This document shows, in pieces, positions 7,127-27,213 of a stretch of 64,000 nt of DNA; within the stretch, counting starts at the first letter, position 1; every line of letters begins with the position of its first letter. The stretch covers positions 1 through 64,000 of the forward strand of contig CAJCJI010000178.1 in the NCBI GenBank assembly GCA_903970595.1, in the 5' to 3' direction. This stretch comes from Verrucomicrobiota bacterium. Its GTDB lineage: Bacteria > Pseudomonadota > Gammaproteobacteria > Nevskiales > Nevskiaceae. Under the pieces are notes generated by a model that was not told the DNA's origin, did not search any database, and was given only the letters and a program-made list of their open reading frames with translations. A program made the position numbers and the translations under genes.

Positions 7127-7396
7127 ATGACCACGGATGTTGCCCTGCAGCTGATGCGCGAAATGCTCTGGACGGCTCTTTGGGTGGGCGCGCCGATCAT
7201 CGCAGTGAGCATGCTTGTCGGCTTGCTGGTCAGTGTGTTCCAGGTGGTGACACAGCTGCAGGAGATGACGCTCACCTTTGTGCCCAAGCTGGTGGCGATT
7301 TTCTTCACTTTGCTGCTAGGTGGTGGCTGGATGCTGTCCAAGCTGGTGGTCTACAGCTCGAAACTGATCGCGAGCATCCCGCAGCTGGTTCATTGA
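7127..7396 (+). CDS. fliQ: Flagellar export gate protein FliQ
   Basis: The 89-aa protein has two transmembrane helices (AMLWTALWVGAPIIAVSMLVGLLVSVFQ and FVPKLVAIFFTLLLGGGWMLSKLVV) joined by the family loop VVTQLQEMTLTFVPK. Length and sequence are normal for FliQ. With FliP and FliR it forms the helical export gate in the MS-ring pore. The ATG at 7127 is chosen because translation from farther upstream adds a non-family leader that overlaps the TPR gene. It opens the fliQ-fliR-flhB-flhA run. Confidence 0.95.
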   Translation: MTTDVALQLMREMLWTALWVGAPIIAVSMLVGLLVSVFQVVTQLQEMTLTFVPKLVAIFFTLLLGGGWMLSKLVVYSSKLIASIPQLVH

Positions 7397-7414
7397 CGCG
7401 GGGCCGGCCCTGGC

Positions 7415-8170
7415 ATGAATCTCACGCTGAATCCAGCTTGGCTGCTGGGGGTATACCTGATCGCCTGCCGCCTTGCGGGCGTGCTGGTGCTTTCCCCGAT
7501 CCTCGGCATGGCAACATTGCCGACCCAGGTGCGCGTGATTTTTGTGGTGCTGATGGCGGTGGTGATGGCCGCGCCGGCAGGAATGCAGATTCCACCCGGA
7601 GGCCTCGGGCTCGGCGAATTGGGCATTCTCGCCGCGGTGGCCGTGCTGCAGGGGGCAATAGTCGGAGCCGCCGTGCGCGCTGCCGTGGCTGCCTTTGGCT
7701 TTGGCGGCCAACTGATCGACTTTCAGATCGGATTCAACGCGGCTGGAATTCTCAATCCGGCTACGCAGGTGCAAAGCTCGCTGATCAGCACCATTTTGGA
7801 GCTGTTTGGTGTGCTTTTATTCCTGCTGTTGGACCTTCACCACGTATTGCTGAGGGGGATGGCGGGAATTTTTCGGGCCTCAGCAGGCAATCCAATCGTC
7901 CCGCAGTCCTTTGTAGAGTCCGTCATCTCGCAATCGACGCTGGTATTTGCCTACGGACTCGCGTTGGTGATGCCGGTCGTGGTCGGACTGTTCCTGGTTG
8001 ACCTGACGATCGCCGTGTTTTCCAGGTCGATGCCGCAGATCAACATCTATTTTGTGGCATTGCCGCTCAAGGTGTTCGCCGGGCTGGCCCTGCTGGCGGC
8101 ATCCGTCCGTTACGTGATGCCACTGGCGGGCCGAGTTTTCGGCTTGGCGCTGGCGGGCCTGACGCCCTAG
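7415..8170 (+). CDS. fliR: Flagellar export gate protein FliR
   Basis: The 251-aa product is a multi-spanning membrane protein of standard FliR length. Family features include LAGVLVLSPILGMATLPTQVRV near the N-terminus, the conserved FGGQLIDFQIGFNAAGILNP segment, and LFLLLDLHHVLLRG. It completes the FliPQR gate and contacts FlhB. The gene follows fliQ by 18 nt and precedes flhB by 11 nt. Nothing looks degenerate. Confidence 0.95.
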   Translation: MNLTLNPAWLLGVYLIACRLAGVLVLSPILGMATLPTQVRVIFVVLMAVVMAAPAGMQIPPGGLGLGELGILAAVAVLQGAIVGAAVRAAVAAFGFGGQLIDFQIGFNAAGILNPATQVQSSLISTILELFGVLLFLLLDLHHVLLRGMAGIFRASAGNPIVPQSFVESVISQSTLVFAYGLALVMPVVVGLFLVDLTIAVFSRSMPQINIYFVALPLKVFAGLALLAASVRYVMPLAGRVFGLALAGLTP

Positions 8171-8181
8171 AGGCCGCTGAA

Positions 8182-9264
8182 ATGGCCGAACAACCGGAAC
8201 AAGACCGCACTGAGCAGGCGACGCCATTCAAGCTGGACGAGGCGCGGGACAAGGGCCTGGTGCCCCGCAGCGGGGAAGTCAGTGTGGCCGCCGGCTTGAT
8301 CGGCGCGGTGCTGTGTGTGGCGATGTTCTCCGGCTGGATGATGCAGCAATTGCTGCAGTTGCAGCGGCGAACGCTGCTGCAGGCGGGGGGCTGGAGCTTT
8401 GACGTCTCGCATGTGACACATTGGCTGGCGCTGCTCGGCGGGCGCGGTCTTTACATCCTCAGCCCCTTGTTCGCGCTGGTCGTCGTGGCCGCCGTGCTGG
8501 GCAATTTTCTGCAAGTGGGCCCGGTTTTCAGCACGACCGCCCTGAAACCGGATTTCACGCGGCTCAACCCCGCCACCGGCCTGCGTCGCATCTTCTCCAG
8601 CCGCAGCGTCTTCGAGCTGATCAAGGTTCTGGCCAAGCTGCTGCTGTTCGGGGGTATCGCCTATGCGGTGATGAGCGGCTTGTTCGCGCGCCTGCCGCAG
8701 TTTTATCAGATGCCCGTTGCGGGCTATCCTTCGGCCCTGCGGCACGAGGTGATGCGCCTGTTGGAGGCGTTGACCGGCGCGGCAATTTTCGTCGCGATCG
8801 CTGACCTGGTCTTTACCCGCTGGGAATTCGGCCGCCGTATGCGCATGAGTCGGCGGGAACTGCGCGACGAGCTCAAGCGGCGGGAAGGCGACCCCCAGAT
8901 CCGCAGCCGGCGGCGGGCTGCGATGCGGGAAATGCGCAAGCGCACCGCCGCCCTGGGCAAGGTCAAGGACGCCGATGTGATCATCACCAATCCCACGCAC
9001 TATGCGGTTGCGCTCAAGTACCGGCGGGGCAAGGCGCCGGCCCCGGAAGTCATTGCCAAGGGTTCCGGCGGCATGGCACGGGCGATGCGCGAGCTGGGCT
9101 TCCGTTACCAGGTACGTATCGTATCCAGCCCTGAACTGGCGCGTGCCCTGTTTCGGGACGTGCCGCTTGGCGGCATGATTCCGGTCAAGCACTATGACGA
9201 AGTGGCGGCAATCCTGCGCCGCGTATACGAAGCCATGGGCCGAAAAATGGACAAGTTGAGATGA
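8182..9264 (+). CDS. flhB: Flagellar export switch protein FlhB
   Basis: The 360-aa protein has the N-terminal EQDRTEQATPFKLDEARDKGLVPRS signature, four membrane helices and a cytosolic domain with the self-cleaving NPTH motif (Asn270) in VIITNPTHYAVALKY. Cleavage at this site switches export from rod/hook to late substrates, so an intact NPTH suggests the switch is kept. The C-terminal region (VRIVSSPELARALFRDVPLGGMIP) is complete. It overlaps flhA by four bases. Confidence 0.95.
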   Translation: MAEQPEQDRTEQATPFKLDEARDKGLVPRSGEVSVAAGLIGAVLCVAMFSGWMMQQLLQLQRRTLLQAGGWSFDVSHVTHWLALLGGRGLYILSPLFALVVVAAVLGNFLQVGPVFSTTALKPDFTRLNPATGLRRIFSSRSVFELIKVLAKLLLFGGIAYAVMSGLFARLPQFYQMPVAGYPSALRHEVMRLLEALTGAAIFVAIADLVFTRWEFGRRMRMSRRELRDELKRREGDPQIRSRRRAAMREMRKRTAALGKVKDADVIITNPTHYAVALKYRRGKAPAPEVIAKGSGGMARAMRELGFRYQVRIVSSPELARALFRDVPLGGMIPVKHYDEVAAILRRVYEAMGRKMDKLR

Positions 9265-11318
9265 ATATCCTGAAGATGGCGTTCGGCTCCCGCAGTGATC
9301 TGGCAATCATCCTGGCGGTGCTTGGCATCCTGTTCGTGCTGTTCTTTCCGATTCCGTCGCCGCTGCTGGATTTCCTGCTGATCCTGAACCTCAGCTTTGC
9401 CATGCTGATCCTGCTCCTGACCTTTTATACGGACAAACCGCTGGGGTTTTCCACCTTTCCCTCACTGCTACTGATCGCCACGCTGTTCCGGTTGTCCCTC
9501 AACGTCGCCGCGACCCGGCTGATCCTGTCGAAAGGGGACGCCGGGCATGTCATCGCCACTGTCGGTACCCATGTAGTAGCCGGTAACTATGTGATCGGCC
9601 TGGTAGTTTTCCTGATTCTCATCGTGGTGCAGTACGTGGTTGTGACGAGCGGCGCGCAGCGTGTCGCCGAAGTGGCTGCGCGATTCACCCTGGACGCCAT
9701 GCCGGGCAAGCAAATGAGCGTCGACGCCGAAATGAACATGGGCCTGATCGATGAGAAGGAGGCCAGGCGCCGCCGCTCGGAGATCGAAAAGGAGGCCAAT
9801 TTCTACGGCGCGATGGATGGGGCCAGCAAGTTCGTCAAGGGCGATGCGGTCGCCGGCATCATCATCATCCTGATCAACATCATTGGCGGCCTGTCGGTCG
9901 GTTTGGTGCAGCGGGGGCTTTCGTGGGCGCAGGCGCTAAATTTGTACACGCTGCTGACCGTAGGCGATGGCATTGTGACGCAGATCCCGGCATTGGTGAT
10001 CGCCACCGCCACCGGCATCATCGTCACGCGCGCGGCCACCGACGCGCATCTGAGCGAGGAAATCGCCAAACAGGTCACGCGCTATCCTAAATCGCTGGTG
10101 ACGGTTGGGGTGGCCCTGATGCTGTCCCTGTTCATGCCCGGAATTCCAGTATTTCCCGTGCTCATCCTGCTTGCTGTGGATGCGGGCCTGCTGGCTATTG
10201 CCGTCCGAACGAAGGGTAGGGAAGCAACCGACGCCGCCGCGGCACTAGTGGGTCCCAGCGACGGCTTGCCCGCGCAGGAGGACCTCACAGCGTTGCTTCC
10301 GGTAGATCCTATCGAGGTCCAGATTGGACCCGCGCTGGTGCCGGTACTGGGTCAGACGGAGGGGCCTTTCATGCGTCGCGTTCAGGCATTCCGTCGCCAG
10401 TATGCAATCGATTACGGCTTCGTCTTTCCGCCGGTCCGCGTGCGCGAGATTGCCAAGAAAAGCGGCGACGAATACGAAGTTCGGATTCAGGGCGCGAAGA
10501 TCGCCTCTGGGCAACTGCTACCCGAGCAGGTGTTGGCGATCAACCCTGGCGGCGAGCGGGCCCGCCTGGCCGGAACCGCAACCCGCGACCCGACATTCGG
10601 CCTGGCGGCGGTGTGGGTTCCGGAGCGCGAACGCGAGCGTGCGCAGCGGGCGGGCTATACGGTGGTTGATCCGGTGACCGTCATCAGCACCCATTTCAAT
10701 GAACTGATCAAGACCCATGCGGCCGACCTGCTGTCCCGGCCGGAAACCGAGGCCCTGCTGGGGCGTGTACGCCAGAAATATCCGACACTGGTCGAGGAAC
10801 TGCTACCTGGAATCCTGTCCTTTGGTGAGGTACAGCGCGTTTTGCAGAATCTGTTGCGCGAGAAGGTCTCGATCCGAAATCTGGAGTACATCGTCGAGCT
10901 GCTGCTGGAGCAAGGGCGCCTGACGCGGGACACCGATGTGTTGACTGAATCGGTGCGGGAACGCCTGGGCAACATCATTTGCGACCGTCTGGGCGCCAGC
11001 GACGGTTCAATGCACGTGCTGACGTTCGACCCCAAGATCGAGGAGCGACTGCGTGCAGGTCTGCGCCAGACCGACAAGCACACCGCCCTGATCATTGATC
11101 CGCCGATGGCGGAAACCCTGCTGCGACGCCTGGCACAGCGTTGCGAGGAAATGATGCTGCAGAATTTGATGCCAATTCTGTTGTGCACGCCATCGCTGCG
11201 GCGGCATGTGCGCCGGCTGACCGAGCGGGCGCTTCCGCATCTGACGGTTCTATCGGTCAACGAGGTGCCGCAAACCAGGACCATTCGGGCCTTCGCGATG
11301 GTTGAAAAAATAGCCTGA
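9261..11318 (+). CDS. flhA: Flagellar export protein FlhA
   Basis: The 685-aa product has the full FHIPEP family layout. About eight N-terminal membrane helices contain the conserved FSTFPSLLLIATLFRLSLNVAATRLIL and the cytosolic FHIPEP loop (SVDAEMNMGLIDEKEARRRR). A large soluble domain follows from about residue 320 (VQIGPALVPVLGQTEGPFMRRVQAFRRQ) to the C-terminus. FlhA forms the nonameric ring that docks chaperone-substrate complexes and uses the proton gradient. Length is normal. It ends the first gene run and is followed by the only long gap inside the block. Confidence 0.95.
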   Translation: MNILKMAFGSRSDLAIILAVLGILFVLFFPIPSPLLDFLLILNLSFAMLILLLTFYTDKPLGFSTFPSLLLIATLFRLSLNVAATRLILSKGDAGHVIATVGTHVVAGNYVIGLVVFLILIVVQYVVVTSGAQRVAEVAARFTLDAMPGKQMSVDAEMNMGLIDEKEARRRRSEIEKEANFYGAMDGASKFVKGDAVAGIIIILINIIGGLSVGLVQRGLSWAQALNLYTLLTVGDGIVTQIPALVIATATGIIVTRAATDAHLSEEIAKQVTRYPKSLVTVGVALMLSLFMPGIPVFPVLILLAVDAGLLAIAVRTKGREATDAAAALVGPSDGLPAQEDLTALLPVDPIEVQIGPALVPVLGQTEGPFMRRVQAFRRQYAIDYGFVFPPVRVREIAKKSGDEYEVRIQGAKIASGQLLPEQVLAINPGGERARLAGTATRDPTFGLAAVWVPERERERAQRAGYTVVDPVTVISTHFNELIKTHAADLLSRPETEALLGRVRQKYPTLVEELLPGILSFGEVQRVLQNLLREKVSIRNLEYIVELLLEQGRLTRDTDVLTESVRERLGNIICDRLGASDGSMHVLTFDPKIEERLRAGLRQTDKHTALIIDPPMAETLLRRLAQRCEEMMLQNLMPILLCTPSLRRHVRRLTERALPHLTVLSVNEVPQTRTIRAFAMVEKIA

Positions 11319-11476
11319 CCTGCCGGGCGCTCCTTCGCCCCAAGATATTCTTACGTTTACTTTACATTGCGCCCCGCCGCGGTGCATTGCTTCTCCGGCA
11401 GAACCGGGCACGGAGTACCGGCTTGAACGGGACTACGCAAGCGCCTGTTTCATTCAGATGTCAGCTTGGCATTGCG

Positions 11477-11504: not shown

Positions 11505-11550
11505 GCCGATTCCTAAGTCGAATCAGCAAAAAAATTTACGCAAAAGGGTC

Positions 11551-11580: not shown

Positions 11581-11701
11581 GAATGCGATTTCGCAGGGAA
11601 TCGGCGGAAGTAACGAGGGAGCAGGTGCAAAGCCTAGCTCAGGGATCAGGGAGTGCAATTTACGACTTAGCGCGGCTTAAACTGTGCGCCTTGGGGGAAA
11701 T

Positions 11702-12421
11702 TTGGACAGCGTATTTGCGGTAGCCCGCATTGGCATGCTTGCCGATTTTGCGCGCTTATCCGTTCAGTCGCAGAATCTTGCCAATGTCGATACCGTCGGT
11801 TACAAGCGACAGGTATCAGTGACCACGGGTTTTGACGCTCGCCTTGACAGTGTGCAGCAGATCGACGACGTCAGCCTGGCGAGCACTTCGCTTACGGACG
11901 TACAGGCCGGTGTTCTCAAGGGGACCACCCGCCCGCTGGACCTTGCCTTAGACGGGGACGGCTTTTTTTCAGTTCGCACGTCCTCCGGAGTGCGGTACAC
12001 CCGGCGCGGGGATTTCTCCCTTGACGCGACTGGACGATTGGTCAATTCCGCCGGCGATCCGGTTCTGGGAGGTGGCGGCGAACTCGTATTGCCGAATATG
12101 GCTGTCACCATCGACAGTACCGGCAAGATCTTCGATTCCAATCAGCAACCGCTCGGGCAACTCGATATTGCACAGTTTTCCGATCCCAAGCGGCTTCGTT
12201 ATCTCGGCGCAGGGCAGTTCGACGCCGCGGGCCAGGCACCAACGGGAGAGGTGACCGCGACCAGGGTGCGTTCCGGATACCTTGAAGCGTCCAATGTGCA
12301 GCCGGCACACGAGATGATCGGCTTGATGGATGTATCGCGGCAGTTTCAGCTGACCAAAAGCGTACTCACGGCCCGCGACGAGATGCTGGACAGTGCGGCA
12401 AACACCCTGGCCCAGTTCTGA
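11702..12421 (+). CDS. flgF: Flagellar proximal rod protein FlgF
   Basis: The 239-aa protein belongs to the FlgF/FlgG rod-hook family. Features include the N-terminal SQNLANVDTVGYKRQ motif, LDLALDGDGFFSVRTSSGVRYTRRGDFSLDATGRLV in the middle, and SGYLEASNVQPAHEMIGLMDVSRQFQLTKSVL at the C-terminus. TTG 11702 is preferred because a GGGGGAA stretch lies just upstream and the protein then begins MDSVFAVA, parallel to FlgG. GTG 11684 is possible but has no ribosome-binding site. FlgF sits before flgG in the usual order and should form the proximal rod. Confidence 0.88.
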   Translation: MDSVFAVARIGMLADFARLSVQSQNLANVDTVGYKRQVSVTTGFDARLDSVQQIDDVSLASTSLTDVQAGVLKGTTRPLDLALDGDGFFSVRTSSGVRYTRRGDFSLDATGRLVNSAGDPVLGGGGELVLPNMAVTIDSTGKIFDSNQQPLGQLDIAQFSDPKRLRYLGAGQFDAAGQAPTGEVTATRVRSGYLEASNVQPAHEMIGLMDVSRQFQLTKSVLTARDEMLDSAANTLAQF

Positions 12422-12454: not shown

Positions 12455-13237
12455 TTGCTTGACTCGATCTACATCGCGGCAACCGGTATCGGCGCTCAAC
12501 AGACCCGCATTGATGCGATTTCCAATGACGTCGCCAACGTGAATACCACCGCCTACAAGATGCAGCGGGCCAATTTCGAGGACGTATTCTATCGTCGGGC
12601 CGCGCAGAGATCGGGCGACTCAGCGCCACTGGCGCTACCCGCGCCGGTCGGTCTGGGCGTGGCTGTGTCTGGAACCCAGACGATCTTCACCCCGGGCAGT
12701 CTGACGCAAACGAACAATCCACTGGATCTTGCGATCAGCGGCAATGGATTCTTCGAGGTGCAGATGTCGGACGGCGCCACGGCCTATACCCGTCTGGGGT
12801 CCCTTGGCCTGGATGAGAAGGGCGAATTGGTCACCCAGGGTGGTGACCCGCTCAAAGTGCGCTTCGTGGTGCCATCGACTGCGACGGCGGTACAGGTGGC
12901 GGCCAATGGCCAGGTCACCGCCAACGTGGCAGGGCAGGCAAACCCGGTGGTTCTCGGCACGCTGGAGCTGGCGAATTTTGTCAACCCCGAAGGCCTGACG
13001 CCCCTGGGTTCGGGCCTCTACGCAGCAACCAACGATTCGGGGCCCGCATTCCAGGCGGTGCCGGGCCAGGAGGGCATGGGGACCTTAAGTCAGGGCTACC
13101 TTGAGTCCTCGAATGTGGACCTGACCTCGGAACTGGTGTCGTTGACCCTCGCCCAGCAGGCCTACCAGCTGAGTTCGAGAGTGCTGCAGGTGTCCGACGA
13201 CATCCTGTCCACCATCACCAACTTCCGTCGCAGTTGA
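12455..13237 (+). CDS. flgG: Flagellar distal rod protein FlgG
   Basis: The 260-aa product starts at TTG with GGAG just upstream. It shows the FlgG hallmarks: MLDSIYIAATGIGAQQTRIDAISNDVANVNTTAYK, NPLDLAISGNGFFEVQMSDG, and the C-terminal YLESSNVDLTSELVSLTLAQQAYQLSSRVLQ. FlgG forms the distal rod, which crosses the peptidoglycan and reaches the L ring. Length is normal. Confidence 0.93.
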   Translation: MLDSIYIAATGIGAQQTRIDAISNDVANVNTTAYKMQRANFEDVFYRRAAQRSGDSAPLALPAPVGLGVAVSGTQTIFTPGSLTQTNNPLDLAISGNGFFEVQMSDGATAYTRLGSLGLDEKGELVTQGGDPLKVRFVVPSTATAVQVAANGQVTANVAGQANPVVLGTLELANFVNPEGLTPLGSGLYAATNDSGPAFQAVPGQEGMGTLSQGYLESSNVDLTSELVSLTLAQQAYQLSSRVLQVSDDILSTITNFRRS

Positions 13238-13241: not shown

Positions 13242-14225
13242 GTGTCCCCAGCGCGCCGCTACTTGGGCTTGTTGTTGGCCTCAGCATGCTGCTGCGCAGC
13301 CACGGCAGCTGCACTCGAGCCGCTCACGCTGGAGCTCCAGCCGGCTTTGACAAGTGGTTCGGCCGTGGTGCGTCTGGATCAGTTCGTCTCGATCAGCGGC
13401 GGCGATGAGGCGCTTCGGTCGCGGCTGGGTTCTGTAGAGTTGCGGCTGGTCAGCCCGCCTGGCGCCGAAGAGCGTGTCACTCGCGATGACGTATCGGCCC
13501 TGGTGGCGCTGCGCATGCCGGATCTGGCCAGCCCCCTGCTGTGGAAAGGCTCCTCGACGATTTCGCGGATTCGGGTTCAGGGCCGGCCGTTGGACTTGCA
13601 GCAACTAACGCAGGAAGGGCAGGCCTTGCTGGAAGATTGGCTGCGCGCCCGCGTCGAGCGATTCAAGGTCGTGCCGCTTTCCGACAGGCAGATCGCCGAG
13701 GCCGAGTCGGCGGCAGACGAAACCGCGACGCTGCGCCCGTTCGCCGGACCGGTGTCGGCCAGGACGGCACTCTGGGTAGATCTGGCGCGACCCGGCCGGC
13801 CTGCTCGCGGCGGCTTTCCCATCTGGTTCGCGGTGGAAGCCTGGGCCGACGCGCCGGTGGCCGCCACCGATATCATCGCCGGTACGCGGCTCAGTGCCGA
13901 GCAGGTGAGCCGATCGCTCCAGGACATCGCCGCGCTGGGTCCGAGGCCCCTGCTGACCGATGCCGACATCCCGGAGAGTGTCGCGGTAGCTCCGATACGG
14001 CAGGGAGAGGCGCTGACCAGAGACCGATTTCGCCAAGCGACGCCGGTGGTGGCCGGTGACGAGGTCCGTCTTCGCGTACAGGATGGGCCGATGCGGGTGG
14101 AAGCTCACGGCATTGCATTGGAGTCAGGAGGCAACGGCCAGCGCATCCGCGTGCGCAATTCCGGCAGTGGCGAGGTGCTGGTCGCCAGCGTGGCCGGCAA
14201 GGGGCTGGTCGAGGTGGCCCCATGA
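13242..14225 (+). CDS. flgA: P-ring assembly chaperone FlgA
   Basis: The 327-aa protein has a signal peptide (MSPARRYLGLLLASACCCAATAAA) and a C-terminal SAF/FlgA domain with DIIAGTRLSAEQVSRSLQDIA, IRQGEALTRDRFRQ and GDEVRLRVQDGPMRVEAHGIALESGGNGQRIRVRN. FlgA is the periplasmic chaperone that helps FlgI assemble the P ring. It is somewhat longer than the E. coli protein because of the N-terminal half, as in many other Pseudomonadota. It overlaps flgH by four bases. Confidence 0.88.
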   Translation: MSPARRYLGLLLASACCCAATAAALEPLTLELQPALTSGSAVVRLDQFVSISGGDEALRSRLGSVELRLVSPPGAEERVTRDDVSALVALRMPDLASPLLWKGSSTISRIRVQGRPLDLQQLTQEGQALLEDWLRARVERFKVVPLSDRQIAEAESAADETATLRPFAGPVSARTALWVDLARPGRPARGGFPIWFAVEAWADAPVAATDIIAGTRLSAEQVSRSLQDIAALGPRPLLTDADIPESVAVAPIRQGEALTRDRFRQATPVVAGDEVRLRVQDGPMRVEAHGIALESGGNGQRIRVRNSGSGEVLVASVAGKGLVEVAP

Positions 14226-14806
14226 GAAGAGATTTGTCGCAGGTCCTTATCGGCCTGTGCTGCTTGGCGGCAGGGATTTCCCAATGCACGCACGCCGGGG
14301 GTCTGTACCACCCGGATGCTTATGCACCACTGACGTCGGACTACCGCGCCTTCAAGGTTGGTGATGCCATTACCGTGATGATCGTGGAATCGGCTAGCGC
14401 CGAGAGCGACGCCGAATCCGACACCAACCGCAATCTGCAGATCACCGCCGGGCTGCAGGGTAGTTCCACGCAGCACACCGCCGGCGCCTCGCTGAGCCGT
14501 CAAAACACCAACAATGGGACCACCACCCGCAATGGCTCGCTCCAGGCGGAGATCACCGCCCGCGTGCAGTCGATCGCCGCAAACGGCGACCTGGCAATCC
14601 ACGGGACGCAATCCATCACGGTGAACGGCGAAACGCAGCGTATCGAACTGTCCGGCGTGGTGCGCTCGATCGACGTATCCGCGGGTAACGTGGTGCAATC
14701 GACGCGACTGTCGAATGCCAGTATCGAATATTCGGGGAAGGGCTTCGTCGATCGCAGCCAGAGCGAAGGCATCATTTCCCGCGTGCTCGATTTCTTCGGG
14801 CTCTGA
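14222..14806 (+). CDS. flgH: Flagellar L-ring protein FlgH (short, no clear lipobox)
   Basis: The 194-aa protein carries FlgH features: GGLYHPDAYAPLTSDYRAFKVGDAITVMIVESASA, the long Ser/Thr/Asn-rich middle, and ITVNGETQRIELSGVVRSIDVSAGNVVQSTRLSNASIEYSGKGFV. FlgH normally is an outer-membrane lipoprotein. Here the signal sequence reads LIGLCCLAAGISQCTHAGGLY and the residue before Cys is Gln, so the usual lipobox is missing. It may be cut by signal peptidase I after THA. The protein is also shorter than the usual 220 to 230 aa. Confidence 0.88.
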   Translation: MRRDLSQVLIGLCCLAAGISQCTHAGGLYHPDAYAPLTSDYRAFKVGDAITVMIVESASAESDAESDTNRNLQITAGLQGSSTQHTAGASLSRQNTNNGTTTRNGSLQAEITARVQSIAANGDLAIHGTQSITVNGETQRIELSGVVRSIDVSAGNVVQSTRLSNASIEYSGKGFVDRSQSEGIISRVLDFFGL

Positions 14807-16367: not shown

Positions 16368-16370
16368 GTG

Positions 16371-19147: not shown

Positions 19148-19908
19148 CGCCTGCCGAGCCAGATCGGTCAATTCTTCACTCTCCGCGAGTCGAGGCGGTA
19201 CCGCGTCGGCTCGGCAGCAGCGCCATTGCTAAAACCCTGCCATCGCCGAATCAGCGGTCCTCTTTGCCCGGATTCGCCGAGATCGCGTCGGAGTCAAACT
19301 CCGGCGTGAGTCCCGAGGCTATCCGGCAGCCTCTGCCGGCACAGATTCCGCCTGAGTTGATACGCGCTGCCGAACATCGCGGTTACGAGGCGGGATTTGC
19401 CAAGGGGAATCAAGCAGTTCGAGGCGAATTCAGGGCCGTTCTGGAACGGCTGGACATTTTGCTGGAGTCCATTGCACAGAAGCGGGATGACCTGCTTGAA
19501 GTCCTTGAAGACGATCTGGTGGAGCTTGCCTTCGAAGCCGCGGCTTTGGTCATAGGTGATGCCGGCGTGCAGCGCGACCTCGTGGTCGAAACGGTCCGGC
19601 GAGTTCTCGCCCAACGATCTGACGCGCATATTGTTGTGGTACGGATTGCTCCCGCGGATTTAAAGCTCGTGGCGGAGTCGGAATCCGGCGCCACCTTGGG
19701 ACTGGGATCGAGAATCAGGCTGCTGGGCGACCCGGAGATTGCCCTTGGCGGCTGCGTAATCGACACCGGGCAAGGTACTTTGGACGCGAGGCTGGAACTG
19801 CTGCTCGCCAAGCTGCGCAGCGCGCTGCTCGAGGCCCGCAGCAAGAGCGCGGACGCGGTGCGGACGCGTGTCCCGCCCTTGTTGGACGGCGCGAGCGGAT
19901 CCCCTTGA
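19144..19908 (+). CDS. fliH: Export ATPase regulator FliH
   Basis: The 254-aa protein has a variable N-terminus, the Gly-containing helix AAEHRGYEAGFAKGNQAVRGEF, a long coiled-coil stretch (LERLDILLESIAQKRDDLLEVLEDDLVELAFEAAALVIGD) and a C-terminal domain with VRIAPADLKLV and LGGCVIDTGQGTLDARLELLLAKLRSAL. This is the FliH/SctL layout. FliH tethers the FliI ATPase to the C-ring. It overlaps its neighbours on both sides by four bases. Confidence 0.88.
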   Translation: MTPAEPDRSILHSPRVEAVPRRLGSSAIAKTLPSPNQRSSLPGFAEIASESNSGVSPEAIRQPLPAQIPPELIRAAEHRGYEAGFAKGNQAVRGEFRAVLERLDILLESIAQKRDDLLEVLEDDLVELAFEAAALVIGDAGVQRDLVVETVRRVLAQRSDAHIVVVRIAPADLKLVAESESGATLGLGSRIRLLGDPEIALGGCVIDTGQGTLDARLELLLAKLRSALLEARSKSADAVRTRVPPLLDGASGSP

Positions 19909-21230
19909 TTCCGATGCTTGCCAAGTACGCCGACTCTCTGCGCCGCCAGGAATGGGTCCAGCGCACCGGCACCGTGCGTGAATGCGTGGGCTCGATCATC
20001 GTTGCCAATGGACCGGACGCTGCGCTGGGAGAACGCTGCCAGATCGTGATCGGTGGCGGCCGACAGTCCGTCGATGCCGAAGTTGTGGGCTTTCGCAGCG
20101 ACAGCGTGTTGCTGATGCCTTATGCGGAGCTGGCGGGGGTGCGCCCGGGCAGCAGCGTGATCGCTACCGGGCGATTTCCCGAGGTCGCGGTCGGGCAGGG
20201 GTTGCTCGGGCGGGTCGTCGACGCCTATGGCCAGCCGATCGACGGCAGGCCTCTGACTGGAATCGCGGGCCGCCGCCCGATCCACGGCCAGCCAATTAAC
20301 CCGCTCAATCGCCGGCGCATCCGGGAGATTTTCACAACCGGCGTCAAAGCGATAGACCTGTTTTTGACCCTGGGGGTCGGACAGCGCATTGGCTTGTTCG
20401 CCGGCAGTGGCATCGGCAAGAGCGCGTTACTGGGGATGATTGCCAAGAACAGCGCCGCCGACGTCAACGTCATCGCCTTGGTCGGCGAGCGCGGCCGTGA
20501 GGTGCGGGACTTCGTGGAAGATCACTTGGCCGACGGATTGAGCCGGTCGGTGGTGGTGGTGGCATCGGCGGAGCAGAGCCCTTTGGTCCGATCGCAGGCG
20601 GCATTCGCCGCCACCAGCATCGCGGAATATTTCCGTGATCAGGGGCTTTCCGTTTCACTGTTGCTGGATTCGATTACGCGTTTCGCCATGGCGCGACGCG
20701 AAATTGGCCTGGCTGTCGGGGAGCCGCCGACTGCTCGCGGCTACACGCCCACGGTGTTTTCCCTGCTGCCGCAGCTGCTGGAGCGCGCGGGGAGTTATTC
20801 GAAACAGGGTAAGGGCGCCATCACGGGGCTGTACACGGTTCTTGTCGAAGGCGACGACCTCAACGAGCCTGTCTCCGACAGCGTGCGCGCCATACTCGAT
20901 GGTCACATCGTGCTGTCCCGCGACATCGCCAATCATGGGCGCTATCCGGCGATTGACCTGATGGCCAGCGTCAGCCGGCTGTTTTCGGTTCTAGCCGACG
21001 AAGGGCAGAAGCGAGCGGTCTCGAAAGTGATCAGGCTGCTGGCGACCTACGCCGATTCGCGCGATGCGATCGATCTGGGCGCGTACAAAGCTGGAAGCAA
21101 CGCGGAGCTCGATGAAGCCATTAAACTGCTGCCCGGCATCGAGCAGTTGCTGCGACAGCCGGTCGAGCAAAGCGTGCCGCTGGATTTGGCGCGCAAGCAA
21201 TTGATCGCGCTCACCGGAGGCGCCACTTGA
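19905..21230 (+). CDS. fliI: Flagellar export ATPase FliI
   Basis: The 441-aa protein is a standard F1-like export ATPase. The Walker A motif is GLFAGSGIGKSALLGMIAK, Walker B lies in LSVSLLLDSITRFAMARREIGLAVGEPPTARGYTP, and the QPVEQ/AxK-type tail is present. TTG 19905 overlaps the fliH stop, and ATG 19914 is an alternative. It unfolds and delivers substrates to FlhA with FliH and FliJ. Confidence 0.96.
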   Translation: MIPMLAKYADSLRRQEWVQRTGTVRECVGSIIVANGPDAALGERCQIVIGGGRQSVDAEVVGFRSDSVLLMPYAELAGVRPGSSVIATGRFPEVAVGQGLLGRVVDAYGQPIDGRPLTGIAGRRPIHGQPINPLNRRRIREIFTTGVKAIDLFLTLGVGQRIGLFAGSGIGKSALLGMIAKNSAADVNVIALVGERGREVRDFVEDHLADGLSRSVVVVASAEQSPLVRSQAAFAATSIAEYFRDQGLSVSLLLDSITRFAMARREIGLAVGEPPTARGYTPTVFSLLPQLLERAGSYSKQGKGAITGLYTVLVEGDDLNEPVSDSVRAILDGHIVLSRDIANHGRYPAIDLMASVSRLFSVLADEGQKRAVSKVIRLLATYADSRDAIDLGAYKAGSNAELDEAIKLLPGIEQLLRQPVEQSVPLDLARKQLIALTGGAT

Positions 21231-21691
21231 GCCGGAATACAAACGGGCACTCGCGCGCGCTTCAGTTGGTGGAAGCCAATCTGCGGCAGGAACTGCGTGA
21301 GCGTGCAAGTGCGCACGCGCTGGATCTGGGGACCTTCCATTTCGCCGAAGCCGCGATGCGATCATTGGAATTGACGGTAACCGACCGGGAAGCCGCACTA
21401 CGTACCCGGCTCTCCGACGTCCGGGAAACATTGGATCCTGCCATGTTGCTTCTGTTCCATGCGGCGCTTGCCGACGGGCGGCAGGAGCATCATTTCGCAG
21501 CCCAGGTGGCGGATAAGGCCGAAGCGGACCTAGACGCCAGCCGCGACGCCTTGTATCAAACGCTCAAGCGGCGCAGCGTGCTGAAGGATGTCCGAAGGCA
21601 GCGAACTCGAGAGGATTCCCTCGAAGAATCGAAGCGGCAGGCATTCGAACTCGACGCCTTGTGGTTGCAGAGCCGGTACGGCCGGCCATGA
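21227..21691 (+). CDS. fliJ: Export ATPase stalk protein FliJ
   Basis: The 154-aa product is almost entirely helical and predicted to form an antiparallel coiled coil (LVEANLRQELRERASAHALDLG, ALYQTLKRRSVLKDVRRQRTREDSLEESKRQAFELDALWLQ). The end of the protein follows the FliJ/SctO pattern, and the gene follows fliI with a four-base overlap. FliJ is poorly conserved, so the call relies on size, coiled coil and position. Confidence 0.75.
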   Translation: MSRNTNGHSRALQLVEANLRQELRERASAHALDLGTFHFAEAAMRSLELTVTDREAALRTRLSDVRETLDPAMLLLFHAALADGRQEHHFAAQVADKAEADLDASRDALYQTLKRRSVLKDVRRQRTREDSLEESKRQAFELDALWLQSRYGRP

Positions 21692-22362
21692 TCTCCGTCC
21701 TGCAGGAGTCGTATCCAAGCGCGCTCCCTGCGAGGCTGGGTGAGCGCTTCGCTGAAAGCACCCGCCTGGGCTGGGAATTGTCAGACTTCACGAATCTCTT
21801 CGAGAATCAGCTGGTGCAGTTTGCGCGGGGTTCGGCGTCCGGCCTTCAACACGGCGGAGACGGGTTCCCGGATTTCGTCGCAGCGGCGGTTGCAGGTGCC
21901 GGCAACATCGCTACCCCCTTCACTGGAATCGCCCGGATTCCCCCTGAGGATTCGACGACCGGCCCGAGTCCGACGCAGGTAGATGCACTCAATGTGGCGG
22001 CACCCGTGGAGCAGCATGATGGAATCGCGTTGATCCAGGTGCAGAAGTCCCCTGCCGAGCCTACTACTGGAAGTACCGGCGAAGAATCAGTCGACACCTT
22101 GCCCGCATCGGGCCGTGCGATCGCGGTTGATGGCGATGCGGCGCAGCATCAGCAAAATCAAAGCGTAGTGTTGGCGTTGGGCCCCGGTGGCGCCGAGGTC
22201 TACATCCGTGATGCGGTTCTGGATGCGGATGCGGGCCTTGCCTTTGCGCGGACCGCCGCCGAGCTACTGCAGCACCATCGGCTGGTGCTGGGCCGGGTAC
22301 TAATCAACGGACAAAGGGTGCATTCGGAGCCGGGCTGGCCGGATGCAACGGATTCAGGCTGA
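21688..22362 (+). CDS. Unrecognised protein in the fliK position
   Basis: The 224-aa product starts MISVLQESYPSALPARLGERF at an ATGA overlap with fliJ. It has a low-complexity middle (IPPEDSTTGPSPTQVDALNV, VQKSPAEPTTGSTGEESVDTL) and a C-terminal part VVLALGPGGAEVYIRDAVLDADAGLAFARTAAELLQHHRLVLGRVLINGQRVH. FliK, the hook-length ruler, is normally found between fliJ and flgD, is Pro/Ser/Gln-rich in its first half and has a C-terminal switch domain. The general layout fits, but I cannot see the conserved FliK C-terminal motif. It could be a diverged ruler or a substrate peculiar to this system. Confidence 0.5.
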   Translation: MISVLQESYPSALPARLGERFAESTRLGWELSDFTNLFENQLVQFARGSASGLQHGGDGFPDFVAAAVAGAGNIATPFTGIARIPPEDSTTGPSPTQVDALNVAAPVEQHDGIALIQVQKSPAEPTTGSTGEESVDTLPASGRAIAVDGDAAQHQQNQSVVLALGPGGAEVYIRDAVLDADAGLAFARTAAELLQHHRLVLGRVLINGQRVHSEPGWPDATDSG

Positions 22363-22392: not shown

Positions 22393-22815
22393 ATGGCGGT
22401 CAGCGCAATCGGCGGGTCCGTAGGCAGCGGAGCCGGACTGAGTACGGTCCAGCAAAGCGGGCTGAGCGAACAGGATTTCATCAATCTGTTTCTCACGCAG
22501 CTGACGTTCCAGGACCCGCTCAACCCGGTCGACAATCGCGAGTTCCTGGCTCAGTTGGCGGAATTCACCACCATCGAGCAGGATCAGATGATCAATGACA
22601 ATCTGACCGGCTTGTTGGAAATACAAGCATCCACGCAAGCTATCGGTCTGATCGGCAAATCGGTGCAGATTACGCAAAACGGCCAGAACATCATCGGATC
22701 CGTCACCGCCGTGAGCTTCCAGAACAATCAGGCGGCTCTGACGGTGACGGAGACCGGCGGGACCGTTCTTACCGATGTCAGTCCGTCTGAAGTTACCCTG
22801 ATCAACGGGACCTGA
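22393..22815 (+). CDS. flgD: Hook-capping scaffold FlgD (short form)
   Basis: The 140-aa protein contains the FlgD core, SEQDFINLFLTQLTFQDPLNPVDNREFLAQLAEFTTIEQDQMINDNL, followed by IGLIGKSVQITQNGQNIIGSVTAVSF. It ends after a short beta domain, so it lacks the Ig-like C-terminal domain of the longer E. coli protein. Short FlgD proteins are known in other phyla. A GAGGAG ribosome-binding site precedes the ATG. FlgD caps the growing hook. Confidence 0.9.
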   Translation: MAVSAIGGSVGSGAGLSTVQQSGLSEQDFINLFLTQLTFQDPLNPVDNREFLAQLAEFTTIEQDQMINDNLTGLLEIQASTQAIGLIGKSVQITQNGQNIIGSVTAVSFQNNQAALTVTETGGTVLTDVSPSEVTLINGT

Positions 22816-22819
22816 GGCC

Positions 22820-24028
22820 ATGACCGCATTTTCCGCCATCTACAGCAGCCTGACTGGCCTGCTCAGCTACACGACCGCGCTGGACGTGGTTAGCCAGAAC
22901 ATCTCCAACCTCAATACGCCTGGGTTCAAGAGCAACGAGTCGCTGTTTGAAGACCTGGGGCCTCTGCAAGTTGGCAACGAAGCGGTCGGCGGGTCGTTCG
23001 AGGACGCGATTGGCCAAGGCGTCACCGTGGACGGGCAGGTGACGAATTTCTCCGAAGGCCAGATCCAGTCCACCGGAAACCCGACTGACCTGGCGATCAA
23101 CGGCAACGGATTTTTTGTGGTGCAGGTTGGTAGCCAGCTGGTTTATACGCGCAACGGCCAGTTCACCTTCAATGGCGGTGGTCAGCTGGTCAACGCGACG
23201 GGCGACCCGGTGATGGCGATTGGTGCAAACGGCAATCTTTCGGACCTGATCGTGAACCAGACACAACAGTATCCGGCCACACCGTCGACGACGGTGAAAT
23301 TCGACAGCACGCTGTCCACTGGGCAGTCCGGCCCCTATACGGTGAGCAGCATCGATGTGGTTGACGCGAGCGGCACCAGTCAGACGCTGTCGGCAGCCTT
23401 TACCTTGGGAACCAATTCGAGCACCGGCTCGATCGAATGGACGGTGAACGTCACCAACAGCAGCGGCGTTACAGTTGGAACCGGCACCATTCAATTCAGC
23501 GGGGCAGGCACGCCGCAGGCCGGATCCGACACCATCACGGTGACGCTGCCTACCGCCAACAATACAAGCAGCCAGATCACCTTTGATTTCAGCGATGCCA
23601 CCTCCAATTCCAGTGGCGCGACCTCGTCACTGGCTGTGGAAAGTGTGGACGGCACGCCTTCTGGTTCGCTGACGGGAGTTACTTTCGACCAGAACGGCGT
23701 GGCGCAATTGGCATTTTCGAACGGCCAGACCCTTACCGGGTCGCAGCTTGCATTGGCCAGCTTTCCCAATCCGGGCTTGCTGGTCGAAGACGGCACCTCC
23801 GGGTACATCGTTCCGCCCGGCTCAACTCTCACACCGACGCTGGGTCACGCTGGCGAGGGGGGGTACGGCACCATAGAGGCGGGAAACCTGGAACTTGCGA
23901 ATGTGGATCTGGGCAATGAGTTTGCGGAGATTATCGTTCTGCAGCAAGGCTATGATGGTAGTTCGCAGGTTTTGAACGTGTCCAGCCAGCTCCTCGACAC
24001 CTTGTACAAAGCGCTCGGGCAGTCCTAG
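22820..24028 (+). CDS. flgE: Flagellar hook protein FlgE
   Basis: The 402-aa protein has the FlgE N-terminus (FSAIYSSLTGLLSYTTALDVVSQNISNLNTPGFKSNESLFEDL), a Gly/Ser/Thr-rich variable middle, and the C-terminus GNLELANVDLGNEFAEIIVLQQGYDGSSQVLNVSSQLLDTLYKAL. Size is typical. Presence of a full hook protein argues against this being an injectisome, which would have a needle and secretin. The stop overlaps the GTG of the fliM-like gene. Confidence 0.93.
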   Translation: MTAFSAIYSSLTGLLSYTTALDVVSQNISNLNTPGFKSNESLFEDLGPLQVGNEAVGGSFEDAIGQGVTVDGQVTNFSEGQIQSTGNPTDLAINGNGFFVVQVGSQLVYTRNGQFTFNGGGQLVNATGDPVMAIGANGNLSDLIVNQTQQYPATPSTTVKFDSTLSTGQSGPYTVSSIDVVDASGTSQTLSAAFTLGTNSSTGSIEWTVNVTNSSGVTVGTGTIQFSGAGTPQAGSDTITVTLPTANNTSSQITFDFSDATSNSSGATSSLAVESVDGTPSGSLTGVTFDQNGVAQLAFSNGQTLTGSQLALASFPNPGLLVEDGTSGYIVPPGSTLTPTLGHAGEGGYGTIEAGNLELANVDLGNEFAEIIVLQQGYDGSSQVLNVSSQLLDTLYKALGQS

Positions 24029-24846
24029 TGCAAGCGCTACATCGACCGTTCCGCCCGCTTGGCCCACTGCAACTGCAGCACCTGGGCACATGGCTCGAGA
24101 ACGCACATCAAGTTTGGCATCGTCGCTGGTTCAAGGATGGACTCGATCACGAGCTTAAGGTCCAATGTGAGGTCGCGACCGTTCCAGGTGGAATTTCCGC
24201 GGGCGATTGGTTGAAATGTCAAACCAGGTGCGGCGCAGTATTCCTCGCGCTTCCGGATTCACTGTGCGGAGAATTCGTCGAATCCTGGATCGGCACCAAG
24301 CCTGAACCAGAATGGCGCGATGGAGACGCAGCCAGCAGGCTGCTCGCGCAGCGCATTCTGGGAGACTGGTTCGGCAGGGTTGTCGGGGCCGAGTTGAAAG
24401 TGGAGGTTTCTCCGGCCGCGGTTGTCTGGAACCGTGCTGCACCTGACGAAGGAAGCTACGCGCCGGCCAGTGGGGCCGTTTGCGCAAGCTTTGAGACTTG
24501 GTTCGGAAACTTCCAAGCGATCTTCGACGGCGACTATGTGCAGGCAGTTCAGCCAACAGTCTTGCCGATGCCGCGCAACATTCCGCATCGGGTCCCCCTG
24601 CTTCAGGCGATCCGGTCGGCGCAGGTCAAACTCCAGGCGAGTGCCAATGCGAGCGCGCAGCTTTCGATCGGCTCTTTGCGCAACTTGTCCGTCGGCGACG
24701 TACTGTTGCTCGAACCGACAGTCACCGAAACATGGAACCTGGCGACGACAGCAGGACAACACGTCGCAGACTGCCACATCGGACGTAAGGCGACGAATCG
24801 CGCGGTCCTCATCTCTTCGAGCAAGGAATTCAAAGATGGTCGCTAA
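24028..24846 (+). CDS. fliM: FliM/SctQ-like C-ring protein without a CheY-binding peptide
   Basis: The 272-aa product sits directly before fliN and ends with a SpoA-type domain (LQASANASAQLSIGSLRNLSVGDVLLLEPTVTETWNLATTAGQHVADCHIGRKATNRAVLI). The first 190 residues are poorly conserved. Motile FliM proteins begin with a short acidic peptide of the L-S-Q-x-E-I-D-x-L-L type that binds phospho-CheY and have GGxxG in the middle domain. Neither is visible here. It looks more like the SctQ proteins of injectisomes, which serve as a sorting platform. Assembly with FliN is expected. I assign the name fliM by position. Confidence 0.7.
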   Translation: MQALHRPFRPLGPLQLQHLGTWLENAHQVWHRRWFKDGLDHELKVQCEVATVPGGISAGDWLKCQTRCGAVFLALPDSLCGEFVESWIGTKPEPEWRDGDAASRLLAQRILGDWFGRVVGAELKVEVSPAAVVWNRAAPDEGSYAPASGAVCASFETWFGNFQAIFDGDYVQAVQPTVLPMPRNIPHRVPLLQAIRSAQVKLQASANASAQLSIGSLRNLSVGDVLLLEPTVTETWNLATTAGQHVADCHIGRKATNRAVLISSSKEFKDGR

Positions 24847-25171
24847 GGAAACGGGTGGCACTGGCGCGCCCCCGCCGGTTCAGCCGGTTGAATTGCCGGA
24901 ACTGGGTACCTCGGATCGAGGTAAGCCTTTGGTCTTGCGTACGTTGGACGTGATTCGGGACGTACAGGTCCGAGCTTCTGCTGTGCTCGGTTCGACTTCG
25001 GTCTCCGTCGAGCACTTGTTTGGATTGAAGGAGGGCGACGTGCTGGAGTTGGACCAGGCAGTCAATGCCCCGGTAGAGGTGCTGGTCGAAGGGAATCTGG
25101 TAGCACACGGGCAGATCGTTGTAGTGGGTGAACGGTTTGGCATCCTCATCACGGGTATTTCGGAGCGATGA
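24836..25171 (+). CDS. fliN: C-ring protein FliN
   Basis: The 111-aa protein has a short variable N-terminus then the whole FliN SpoA domain: VLRTLDVIRDVQVRASAVLGSTSVSVEHLFGLKEGDVLELDQAVNAPVEVLVEGNLVAHGQIVVVGERFGILITGI. FliN forms the lower C-ring and binds FliH, bringing the ATPase complex to the gate. It overlaps the fliM-like gene by 11 nt. Confidence 0.93.
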   Translation: MVAKETGGTGAPPPVQPVELPELGTSDRGKPLVLRTLDVIRDVQVRASAVLGSTSVSVEHLFGLKEGDVLELDQAVNAPVEVLVEGNLVAHGQIVVVGERFGILITGISER

Positions 25172-25201
25172 TGTGGCTTTGGTCATTCAACGGATCGACC
25201 G

Positions 25202-25630
25202 ATGAGGCTGCGGTGCACAAACATCTCGTTACAATTTTGCGTGGCAACGTCTGCGTGGTTTGCCTCCAGGCAAGCTGTTGCGGTTGCTGACACGGGCGTT
25301 TTACCGACTGCCGACCAGCCCCACTTCGCCGCAGATGACCTCGGTTTGGTGCATCACCTTGCTGTCGGCCTGGGCAGTGTTGTGGTCCTTGCCCTGCTCG
25401 GCTGTCTGGCGGTCTACGTTGCGCGCAAATATGGTTTGGCGCTGCCCAGGACAGTAGCGGGCGGTGACTTTTCCCTGCGTATCCTCGCTAGCCGCCGTGT
25501 GAGTCCGAGGCTGCATGTCGCGGCGATCCAGATTTCGCATGATCGCATCGTCATTCTTGCGGACAACGGGCAGGCCATCGAAAAGTTGGCGGAGTTTCCT
25601 GTGGATTCGGCTCCAGGGACCCGACAATGA
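25202..25630 (+). CDS. fliO: Flagellar export gate assembly protein FliO
   Basis: The 142-aa product has an N-terminal hydrophobic segment, a membrane helix (LAVGLGSVVVLALLGCLAVYVARKYG) and a cytosolic tail with LRILASRRVSPRLHVAAIQISHDRIVILADNGQAIEKLAEFP, the FliO pattern. FliO helps FliP oligomerise. It lies between fliN and fliP as in many flagellar operons and overlaps fliP by four bases. A slightly earlier ATG at 25171 is in another frame and gives no FliO sequence. Confidence 0.85.
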   Translation: MRLRCTNISLQFCVATSAWFASRQAVAVADTGVLPTADQPHFAADDLGLVHHLAVGLGSVVVLALLGCLAVYVARKYGLALPRTVAGGDFSLRILASRRVSPRLHVAAIQISHDRIVILADNGQAIEKLAEFPVDSAPGTRQ

Positions 25631-26388
25631 CACGACGCTGGCAAACCGTACTTCGCTTGCTTGCCATAGCGATTGGGTTGGCGCTGTCCATCCTGCCGGC
25701 GCATGCGGCTGACGTCACCTTCAATGGCGGCTCCTTGTCGCTGACACCGGGTCACGACGGCCTAACTGGCCCGGTCAAGATTGTCCTGCTGCTTACCGCG
25801 CTGAGTTTCGCTCCGGCCTTGCTGATTGCGGCGACCTCATTCACCAGAATAATCATTGTCATGTCCATGCTGCGCCAGGCCATCGGCATGACCAATACGC
25901 CGCCGAACGCCGTATTGATCAGCTTGGCGCTGTTTCTGACTCTTTTCACGATGTCACCCGTGCTCAGTGCGGTGGACGATGCCGCGATCGAGCCATACCT
26001 GGCCGGAAAGCTCGATGAAAAGCCGGCGCTTGCCGCGGCGGAAGTTCCTATCCGGAAGTTTCTGGTGGCGCAGACGCGGGAAGCGGATCTCAAGCTTGTT
26101 ATTGAACTTTCCGGCAAGGCACAACCAGCATCTGTGGATGAGGTACCGCTGTTCACGCTGATTCCTGCGTTCATGCTCAGTGAATTGCGTATTGGGTTCG
26201 AAATCGGCTTCGTTATTTTTTTGCCGTTTGTCCTTATCGATCTGGTGGTCGCCAGTGTCCTGATGTCGCTGGGCATGATCATGGTGCCGCCTCTGGCAAT
26301 TTCTTTGCCGCTGAAAATCCTCGTTTTTATTCTGATCGACGGCTGGAGCCTGGTTACGGAAGTTCTGGTGCGGAGTTTTCAAACTTGA
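25627..26388 (+). CDS. fliP: Flagellar export gate protein FliP
   Basis: The 253-aa protein has a signal-like N-terminus (LLAIAIGLALSILPAHA) and the highly conserved FliP core: LLTALSFAPALLIAATSFTRIIIVMSMLRQAIGMTNTPPN, LFTLIPAFMLSELRIGFEIGFVIFLPFVLIDLVVASVLMSLGMIMVPP. It is full length and intact. With FliQ and FliR, encoded nearly 20 kb away at the other end of the block, it forms the export gate. Confidence 0.96.
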   Translation: MTRRWQTVLRLLAIAIGLALSILPAHAADVTFNGGSLSLTPGHDGLTGPVKIVLLLTALSFAPALLIAATSFTRIIIVMSMLRQAIGMTNTPPNAVLISLALFLTLFTMSPVLSAVDDAAIEPYLAGKLDEKPALAAAEVPIRKFLVAQTREADLKLVIELSGKAQPASVDEVPLFTLIPAFMLSELRIGFEIGFVIFLPFVLIDLVVASVLMSLGMIMVPPLAISLPLKILVFILIDGWSLVTEVLVRSFQT

Positions 26389-26403
26389 TTCGCCGCTACG
26401 TGG

Positions 26404-27213
26404 ATGGCTTGGACAATGGATCTCACCCCCGTCGCGGCTGAGCCTGAGCGTATGGAAGAGGCGGACCGGCCATCCGAAGATGACGCGGCAGCGCGCCAGG
26501 CCGCCGAGGCGGCCTTATGGACGCACTGGGTAACTGGGAAGGACCGAGGAGCGCGAACCAAGATCATTCTTCAATACCTGCCAATGGCCAGAGCCATAGC
26601 GCGGGACTTGATGTACAAAATCGGCAGTGACTACCTCGACTATGCCGACCTGATTCAAATGGCAACCGTAGGGCTCATCAACGCGGTTGATCGATTCGAC
26701 CCGCGGCGCTTGGTGCCGTTTCGGGCGTTTGCCGAAAAGCGTGTGAAGGGAGCCGTGTTAAATGGCGTTGCCAACAACTCCGAAATGCATGCCCAGGTGG
26801 CTTACAGGCAGCGTCACCGCCTCGAGCGCGTGGACGCGCTGCGCCCGGATCGGCCGGTGCACGACAGCGTGGAATATTTTTCCGAAATGGTAGAAATGGC
26901 AGTCGGTTTGGCGGTTGGTTTCATGCTGGAAGGTACCGGGCTGTTTAATGCAGCGCCCGATGCGCCCAATCTCGGGTACGGCGAGTCCGGCGAAATTGCC
27001 GCGCAGTCTGATCTATTCAGGAAGTTGCTGAGTCATCTCCCGGAAACGGAGCGCGCTGTTCTCGAACTCCACTACGCAAGCGGGCTTCAATTCGGAGAAG
27101 TTGGCCGATTACTTGGGTTGAGCAAGGGGCGCATTTCGCAGATACACAAAGCCGCGCTTTCCACTCTGCGACAGCTGGCGCGCTCTCATACCGGTCTTGA
27201 CCTACGCATTTAG
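26404..27213 (+). CDS. fliA: FliA/WhiG-type sigma factor
   Basis: The 269-aa protein has sigma region 2 (YLPMARAIARDLMYKIGSDYLDYADLIQMATVGLINAVDRFDPRRLVPFRAFAEKRVKGAVLNGV) and region 4 (LLSHLPETERAVLELHYASGLQFGEVGRLLGLSKGRISQIHKAALSTLRQL), the layout of sigma-28 proteins. It differs from E. coli FliA in region 3. In flagellar regulons FliA transcribes late genes such as flagellin and chemotaxis genes, yet none is present here and no anti-sigma FlgM gene is visible. It closes the block 15 nt after fliP, so it is probably co-transcribed and could drive genes located elsewhere or the block itself. Confidence 0.85.
   Translation: MAWTMDLTPVAAEPERMEEADRPSEDDAAARQAAEAALWTHWVTGKDRGARTKIILQYLPMARAIARDLMYKIGSDYLDYADLIQMATVGLINAVDRFDPRRLVPFRAFAEKRVKGAVLNGVANNSEMHAQVAYRQRHRLERVDALRPDRPVHDSVEYFSEMVEMAVGLAVGFMLEGTGLFNAAPDAPNLGYGESGEIAAQSDLFRKLLSHLPETERAVLELHYASGLQFGEVGRLLGLSKGRISQIHKAALSTLRQLARSHTGLDLRI

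Follow-up and report, generated by a model that had tools for sequence, protein, structure and literature searches.

A filament-less flagellar-type operon conserved across Proteobacteria and associated with giant Rhs proteins: a probable non-rotary exporter

The stretch of 64,000 nucleotides analyzed here (the window; positions 1 to 64,000 of contig CAJCJI010000178.1) belongs to a metagenome-assembled genome (MAG) of the family Nevskiaceae, G000, that is 87% complete in 534 contigs. Its forward strand carries an intact operon (5376–27213) encoding a flagellar-type export gate with its ATPase, an MS ring, a rod, the P and L rings and a hook, with no match to a filament gene. In most relatives, this intact filament-less machine travels with genes for giant Rhs (YD-repeat) toxins, which suggests that it is probably a protein exporter directed against other bacteria and not a swimming organ. 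Judged from sequence comparisons, the system is thus likely to be a non-rotary, non-motile exporter of giant polymorphic Rhs toxins of the flagellar type. For the broader proposition, that this is a widespread and previously unrecognised toxin-delivery system in which a non-rotary hook-basal body, spread through Proteobacteria on plasmids and islands, exports or injects Rhs proteins of 5,000–13,000 residues via a conserved N-terminal signal, we would put the chances at about even.

A first-pass annotation of the window had described a hook-basal body and export system from 7127 onwards, lacking filament, hook-associated, stator and chemotaxis genes. All the genes it listed are present and open at that place; the list was incomplete, having missed the fliM-like, fliN and fliK-like genes, a short fliG-like gene (18575–19147), a sigma factor gene and a pair of TPR genes that places the 5′ end of the operon upstream, at 5376. 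The absences were borne out, as no match to fliC, fliD, flgK, flgL, fliS, motA/B, fliL, flgM, flgN, flgJ or che genes was obtained with Pfam or NCBIfam in the block; hook-associated proteins were sought in the block only, and the genome-wide search for motor parts covered MotB and FliG_C. That the flanks supply no such genes agrees with the gene calls on the remainder of the contig (102 kb in all), which look metabolic as judged from their N-terminal sequences only.

The window system is an independent, widely conserved clade. Window-type FlhA occurs in the order in G051 and G005 (73% identity) and G064–G066 (59%) and, in the rest of the class, in G303, G347 and G382 (55–57%); a clear gap separates these from every other FlhA, at 45% identity or less. 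A FlhA motif specific to this type gave 404 candidate relatives in GTDB genomes, of which 80 make up the named loci on which the counts given for such loci rest. These include Dyella, Rhodanobacter, Hahella, Kangiella, Pseudoalteromonas, Catenovulum and Teredinibacter, along with Variovorax, Ralstonia, Burkholderia, Paraburkholderia, Duganella, Roseateles and the alphaproteobacterium Ponticaulis. In a FlhA tree, a check that had been proposed with the first-pass annotation, the window type formed a clade of 85 sequences with zero outsiders, a local support of 0.90 and a long stem. Mapping of 29 loci at up to 40 kb showed one and the same gene order, and its recurrence in Gamma-, Beta- and Alphaproteobacteria excludes chance; the gate, rings, rod and hook were kept in every complete locus. 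The system is present twice on chromosome 2 of Catenovulum sediminis, in nearly identical copies (L124 and L138), each with its own giant Rhs match about 20 kb off, and one further locus (L185) lies in a MAG labelled Klebsiella pneumoniae, a label that is doubtful.

In many loci, the genes beside the operon include ones for giant Rhs/YD-repeat proteins, which reach 6,661 amino acids (aa), with RHS_repeat matches in the giants of G064, G065, G066 and G005, the last of which is cut off at the contig end. Their N-termini are alike, following the pattern MVAIIxGxGLGLxNxSLxxLG...YVNAATGNLVIQ...RTYNS, and show no signal peptide by eye. A profile of this N-terminus matched in 25 of the 29 system-bearing genomes and in none of 51 genomes lacking the system (16 of the 51 belonging to the genus of the window). 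With the 11 positive genomes used to build the profile removed, the counts were 14/18 and 0/51 (Fisher p = 2e-11, an optimistic value because the genomes are related). Among 369 genomes sampled evenly from the class, matches at E <= 1e-20 occurred only in three of the four that have the system. The match lay on the contig of flhA, at most about 38 kb from it, in 20 of the 25 genomes. When plasmids were searched with FlhA as the sole criterion, three further members came to light, all with a nearby protein bearing the Rhs N-terminus: the partner on a Burkholderia ubonensis plasmid has 4,897 aa, on Undibacterium pUYM01 the operon adjoins an open reading frame of 12,948 aa (L292 4284–43130) that combines the common N-terminus with tandem-95 and YD-type repeats, and on a Variovorax megaplasmid the N-terminus lies in a 96-residue open frame that is perhaps cut off. 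Toxin domains were recognized in four of eight C-terminal tails (Colicin-DNase/WHH, CdiA_C_tRNase, Tox-MPTase5 and Deam_C) and in none of the other four. A secretion channel or a non-rotating hook had been the original interpretation of the block; the present analysis supports it, and the linked giant Rhs genes point further to the secretion part.

In the proposed mechanism, the gate with its ATPase, the MS ring, a C-ring scaffold, the rod, the P and L rings and a short hook would assemble without a filament, and the giant Rhs proteins, possibly chaperoned beforehand by the TPR proteins, would be exported through the rod–hook channel by means of their conserved, signal-peptide-free N-terminus. 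They would end outside the cell or at the surface of a neighbor, where the C-terminal toxin would be delivered. The operon's own sigma factor is a candidate regulator that may coordinate expression. What the sequences establish directly is the gene content, its conservation, its separateness from motility flagella and, in relatives, the co-occurrence and linkage of the giant Rhs genes; the steps of assembly, export, chaperoning, regulation and delivery are inferred.

Several points weigh against this mechanism. Chains of 5,000–13,000 residues are extreme for a type III channel. The Rhs match is on a different contig from flhA in 5 of the 25 genomes, and the N-terminus was not found in Hahella CCB-MM4, in G051 (where the contig begins within the first genes of the operon) or in the incomplete genome of the window itself, which has four RHS_repeat matches; since no such Rhs gene was found there, the cargo in that organism is proposed from its relatives. 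The N-terminus is also not exclusive to the system: some small genomes in which no window-type FlhA was detected have weaker relatives of it (E 1e-7 to 1e-13), so that it may mark an Rhs subfamily and not a flagellar export signal. Finally, flagellar export genes of Lysobacter have been tied to twitching motility (PMC7277350). The small genomes concerned are mostly AT-richer (G257, G363, G175, G088, G183, G108 and G389; L278, L280, L282, L283 and L285–L288), and each of their giant YD-repeat proteins is preceded by a gene of about 500–1250 aa.

The same giants would be read differently if the flagellar-type exporter displayed them as surface-anchored adhesins, or if the structure were simply a non-rotating hook, with no toxin injection in either case. 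The tandem-95 repeats annotated in the Undibacterium partner are typical of large adhesins, and retention of the hook gene in every complete locus would fit such a surface structure, but several partners end in toxin domains and share with polymorphic toxins the YD-repeat architecture, so we regard this explanation as unlikely, though worth keeping in mind. About as unlikely, in our judgement, is that the apparatus exports another cargo or serves, for example, twitching motility while the Rhs genes merely co-travel on islands. Integrases beside the window operon and near the plasmid copies, the effect of Lysobacter FlhA, FlhB, FliI and FliR on twitching (PMC7277350) and the five genomes with the Rhs match on another contig are in line with co-travel; against it, nearly all lineages have retained the same Rhs N-terminus with tails that vary, and this N-terminus is missing from all 51 system-less relatives.

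Export by a non-rotary machine, the reading preferred here, also draws on the composition of the C-ring. An absence of fliG holds for the torque domain only, none being found in the operon; a short FliG-superfamily gene (orfG) occupies the fliG position. A homologue of the orfG family is present in 62 of the 80 named loci; MgtE_N was matched by 25 of 50 family members (best 5e-7), and some members matched FliG_N or FliG_M. An hhalign comparison of orfG gave a probability of 57% (E 1e-4). The AlphaFold model of orfG (mean pLDDT 78, pTM 0.42) had as its top matches among solved structures the N-terminal and middle domains of FliG (Z 5–6), which ranked above unrelated proteins. Taken together, this is moderate evidence that orfG may correspond to the N-terminal and middle domains of FliG only, the torque domain being absent. 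In addition, the CheY-binding motif was absent from 27 of 27 FliM-like proteins and is present in the FliM of the organism's own motility cluster. Without a stator, and with a FliG-like protein that apparently has no torque domain, the system seems unable to rotate by the known mechanism.

Parts that could complete the system as a flagellum were found elsewhere in G000, in a separate context. A second flhA, 40% identical to that of the window, lies on contig C355 along with the only FliG_C match of the genome, MotB and the motif-bearing FliM, and flagellin-family genes lie on contig C526, indicating that the organism has a separate motility flagellum. FliG_C was likewise present as one copy, in the motility cluster, in those dual genomes that were checked for its place. 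No flagellin, FliG_C or MotB was found in three system-bearing genomes, the Nevskia MAG G005, Kangiella sp. HZ709 and Caenimonas koreensis, so that the system exists where no flagellum can be made; G347, which also has the system, has no flagellin and a marginal MotB match (1e-4). These genomes run counter to the idea of a second (lateral) flagellum that has decayed and relies on the cell's motility flagellum for filament, hook-associated and stator proteins. The motility genes of the window's own genome (flhA, FliG, MotB and flagellins) would be in line with such borrowing, but the operon is intact and syntenic over a long divergence and its C-ring parts are without torque and CheY features; the idea was rejected as very improbable.

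The core of the system is flagellar in type. When the NCBIfam equivalog models for flagellar and injectisome (Sct) proteins were compared at their curated cut-offs, fliP, fliQ, flhA, fliF, fliE, flgG and flgC passed the flagellar ones, and FliR, FlhB, FlgF, FlgB and FliI were clear flagellar relatives scoring below theirs. Specifically, FlhA scored 796.5 against a FlhA cut-off of 772.1 and 608 against a SctV cut-off of 692, which makes the core flagellar and not injectisome-like; FliP and FliQ were similarly above the flagellar and below the Sct cut-offs. A non-flagellar type III injectisome, which the first-pass annotation had already discounted, is scarcely credible and was rejected on these scores: the export core is common to both machines and a FlhB relative is labelled EscU/YscU/HrcU by PGAP, but FliF and FliE too pass flagellar and not Sct (SctV/R/S/J) cut-offs, the block has genes for FlgH, FlgI, rod and hook, and no secretin, needle or translocon match was obtained by Pfam among the block genes. 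A third kind of FlhA-like protein, 37–38% identical and perhaps an injectisome SctV, occurs in G020, G042 and G044 of the window's family and in L068; its motif among the loci is VVQFIVVAKGAERVAEVAARF.

Judged by published gene pattern, the system most closely resembles the retained flagellar type III system of the non-flagellated Lysobacter enzymogenes, a functional, filament-less apparatus that exports FlgD and heterologous FliC and whose native cargo was left open by the authors (PMC7277350, PMC9927559). Export genes are kept in both, and fliC, fliD, flgK, flgL, motA, motB and recognizable fliG and fliM are missing (the Lysobacter list is from PMC9927559). The Lysobacter genes, by contrast, are leftovers said not to form an operon and are tied to twitching and to antifungal toxins, and a Xanthomonas-based BLAST found no flgB or fliE there; a link to Rhs was not reported in the Lysobacter texts searched. 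Motility flagella, including the organism's own C355 cluster and those of relatives, have homologous gate, ATPase, MS ring, rod, P/L ring and hook proteins, but FlhA of the window is only about 40% identical to theirs, and the window system is without filament, hook-associated proteins, stator, FliG torque domain and CheY-binding FliM. The T3SS* of Myxococcus xanthus is likewise a type III basal apparatus lacking external parts and used between bacteria: a needleless, injectisome-like sorting platform that acts with a Tad-like Kil pilus against prey and has no secretin, needle or translocon (PMC12075869). The window system, unlike it, keeps the flagellar rod, P/L rings and hook. Flag-2, the secondary (lateral) system of Enterobacterales, is also a second flagellar locus beside a primary one and carries cargo genes, but its conserved proteins include the flagellin LafA (PMC6993521). 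Rhs toxins delivered by type VI secretion share the YD-repeat architecture and exchangeable C-terminal toxins, whereas the giant Rhs genes described here adjoin a flagellar-type apparatus and have a distinct common N-terminus. No report linking Rhs proteins to flagellar-type export was found in the literature searched, which was open-access only and gives weak evidence of absence; as far as seen, the flagellar parts are known and their use and the Rhs partner are new.

If the proposed function is correct, flagellar export machines have repeatedly been kept without motility, as weapons, and a class of giant Rhs toxins would gain a secretion route. It would also suggest what may be exported by the flagellar export systems whose retention in non-flagellated bacteria is a puzzle, and provide a test of the largest protein that can pass a type III channel. 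Current genome annotation names these operons ordinary flagellar genes, and motility predictions for such genomes would then be wrong.

The genes of the operon are given in Table 1. The window's own genes at the fliG, fliJ and fliK positions had no Pfam or NCBIfam match, and a simple promoter scan found nothing. In other loci, TPR genes are located either upstream or downstream of the operon.

Table 1. Genes of the window operon in their order of occurrence, with the basis of each assignment. Cut-offs are those of the NCBIfam models.
Gene	Position	Strand	Description	Basis
TPRa	5376..5921	+	181 aa; first operon gene; candidate export chaperone	Pfam TPR; same-place homologue in G005, G066, G064, G065
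TPRb	5878..7110	+	410 aa; candidate export chaperone	Pfam TPR; syntenic homologues, 35–40% identity, in five Nevskiaceae loci
fliQ	7127..7396	+		PF01313 4.6e-27; TIGR01402 above cut-off; start is ATG at 7127
fliR	7415..8170	+		PF01311 3.1e-45; TIGR01400 2.3e-42, below its cut-off
flhB	8182..9264	+		PF01312 1.1e-105
flhA	9261..11318	+	Clade marker	PF00771 5e-246; TIGR01398 above cut-off
flgF	11684..12421	+	Proximal rod	TIGR02490 4.9e-49, below cut-off; TIGR03506 above cut-off
flgG	12455..13237	+	Distal rod	TIGR02488 3.4e-83, above cut-off
flgA	13242..14225	+	P-ring chaperone	PF13144 1.4e-22
flgH	14222..14806	+	L-ring	PF02107 2.5e-45
flgI	14809..15954	+	P-ring	PF02119 4.4e-112
flgB	15966..16367	+	Rod	PF00460, TIGR01396
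flgC	16368..16823	+	Rod	TIGR01395 3.4e-34, above cut-off
fliE	16823..17122	+		PF02049 2.5e-24; TIGR00205 above cut-off
fliF	17172..18590	+	MS ring	PF01514, PF08345; TIGR00206 above cut-off
orfG	18575..19147	+	Short putative FliG-superfamily protein, 190 aa, at fliG position, without FliG torque domain	Family-level matches and model
fliH	19144..19908	+		PF02108 2.7e-16
fliI	19905..21230	+	Export ATPase	PF00006, PF18269; TIGR01026 above cut-off
fliJ-like	21227..21691	+	Coiled-coil gene	Position after fliI; gene of ~150 aa at same place in most loci; no database match
fliK-like	21661..22362	+	Variable region and conserved C-terminal segment	Position before flgD; C-terminal 'RDY...NG' pattern common to loci; no database match
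flgD	22393..22815	+	Hook cap, N-terminal part only	PF03963 9.7e-17
flgE	22820..24028	+	Hook	TIGR03506 4.9e-70
fliM-like	24028..24846	+	C-ring protein without CheY-binding motif	PF01052 1.9e-5; N-terminus
fliN	24836..25171	+		PF01052 3.7e-20, TIGR02480 4.2e-20
fliO-like	25202..25630	+		PF04347 0.0065, weak; position before fliP; 41% homologue in G051
fliP	25627..26388	+		PF00813 6.5e-73; TIGR01103 above cut-off
Sigma factor	26404..27213	+	FliA/WhiG-like (sigma-28-like); last gene	PF04545/PF04542; TIGR02479 4.5e-29, below cut-off; after fliP in most loci

Directly after the sigma factor gene, the window has a tyrosine integrase gene (27266–28570, reverse strand), and integrases are also found near the operon on the Undibacterium and B. 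ubonensis plasmids, suggesting that the system may be mobile. In many other loci (e.g. L057, L205 and L223), two conserved divergent genes, coding for about 120 and 210 aa and the latter TPR-like, lie downstream of the sigma factor gene; the window has the integrase at that place, and the pair was not seen there. On the other side, divergent from the operon, are genes for a lipoprotein-like protein with eleven Big_2 Ig-like domains and an adjoining outer-membrane beta-barrel protein (1065–4160 and 4258–5358, both on the reverse strand).

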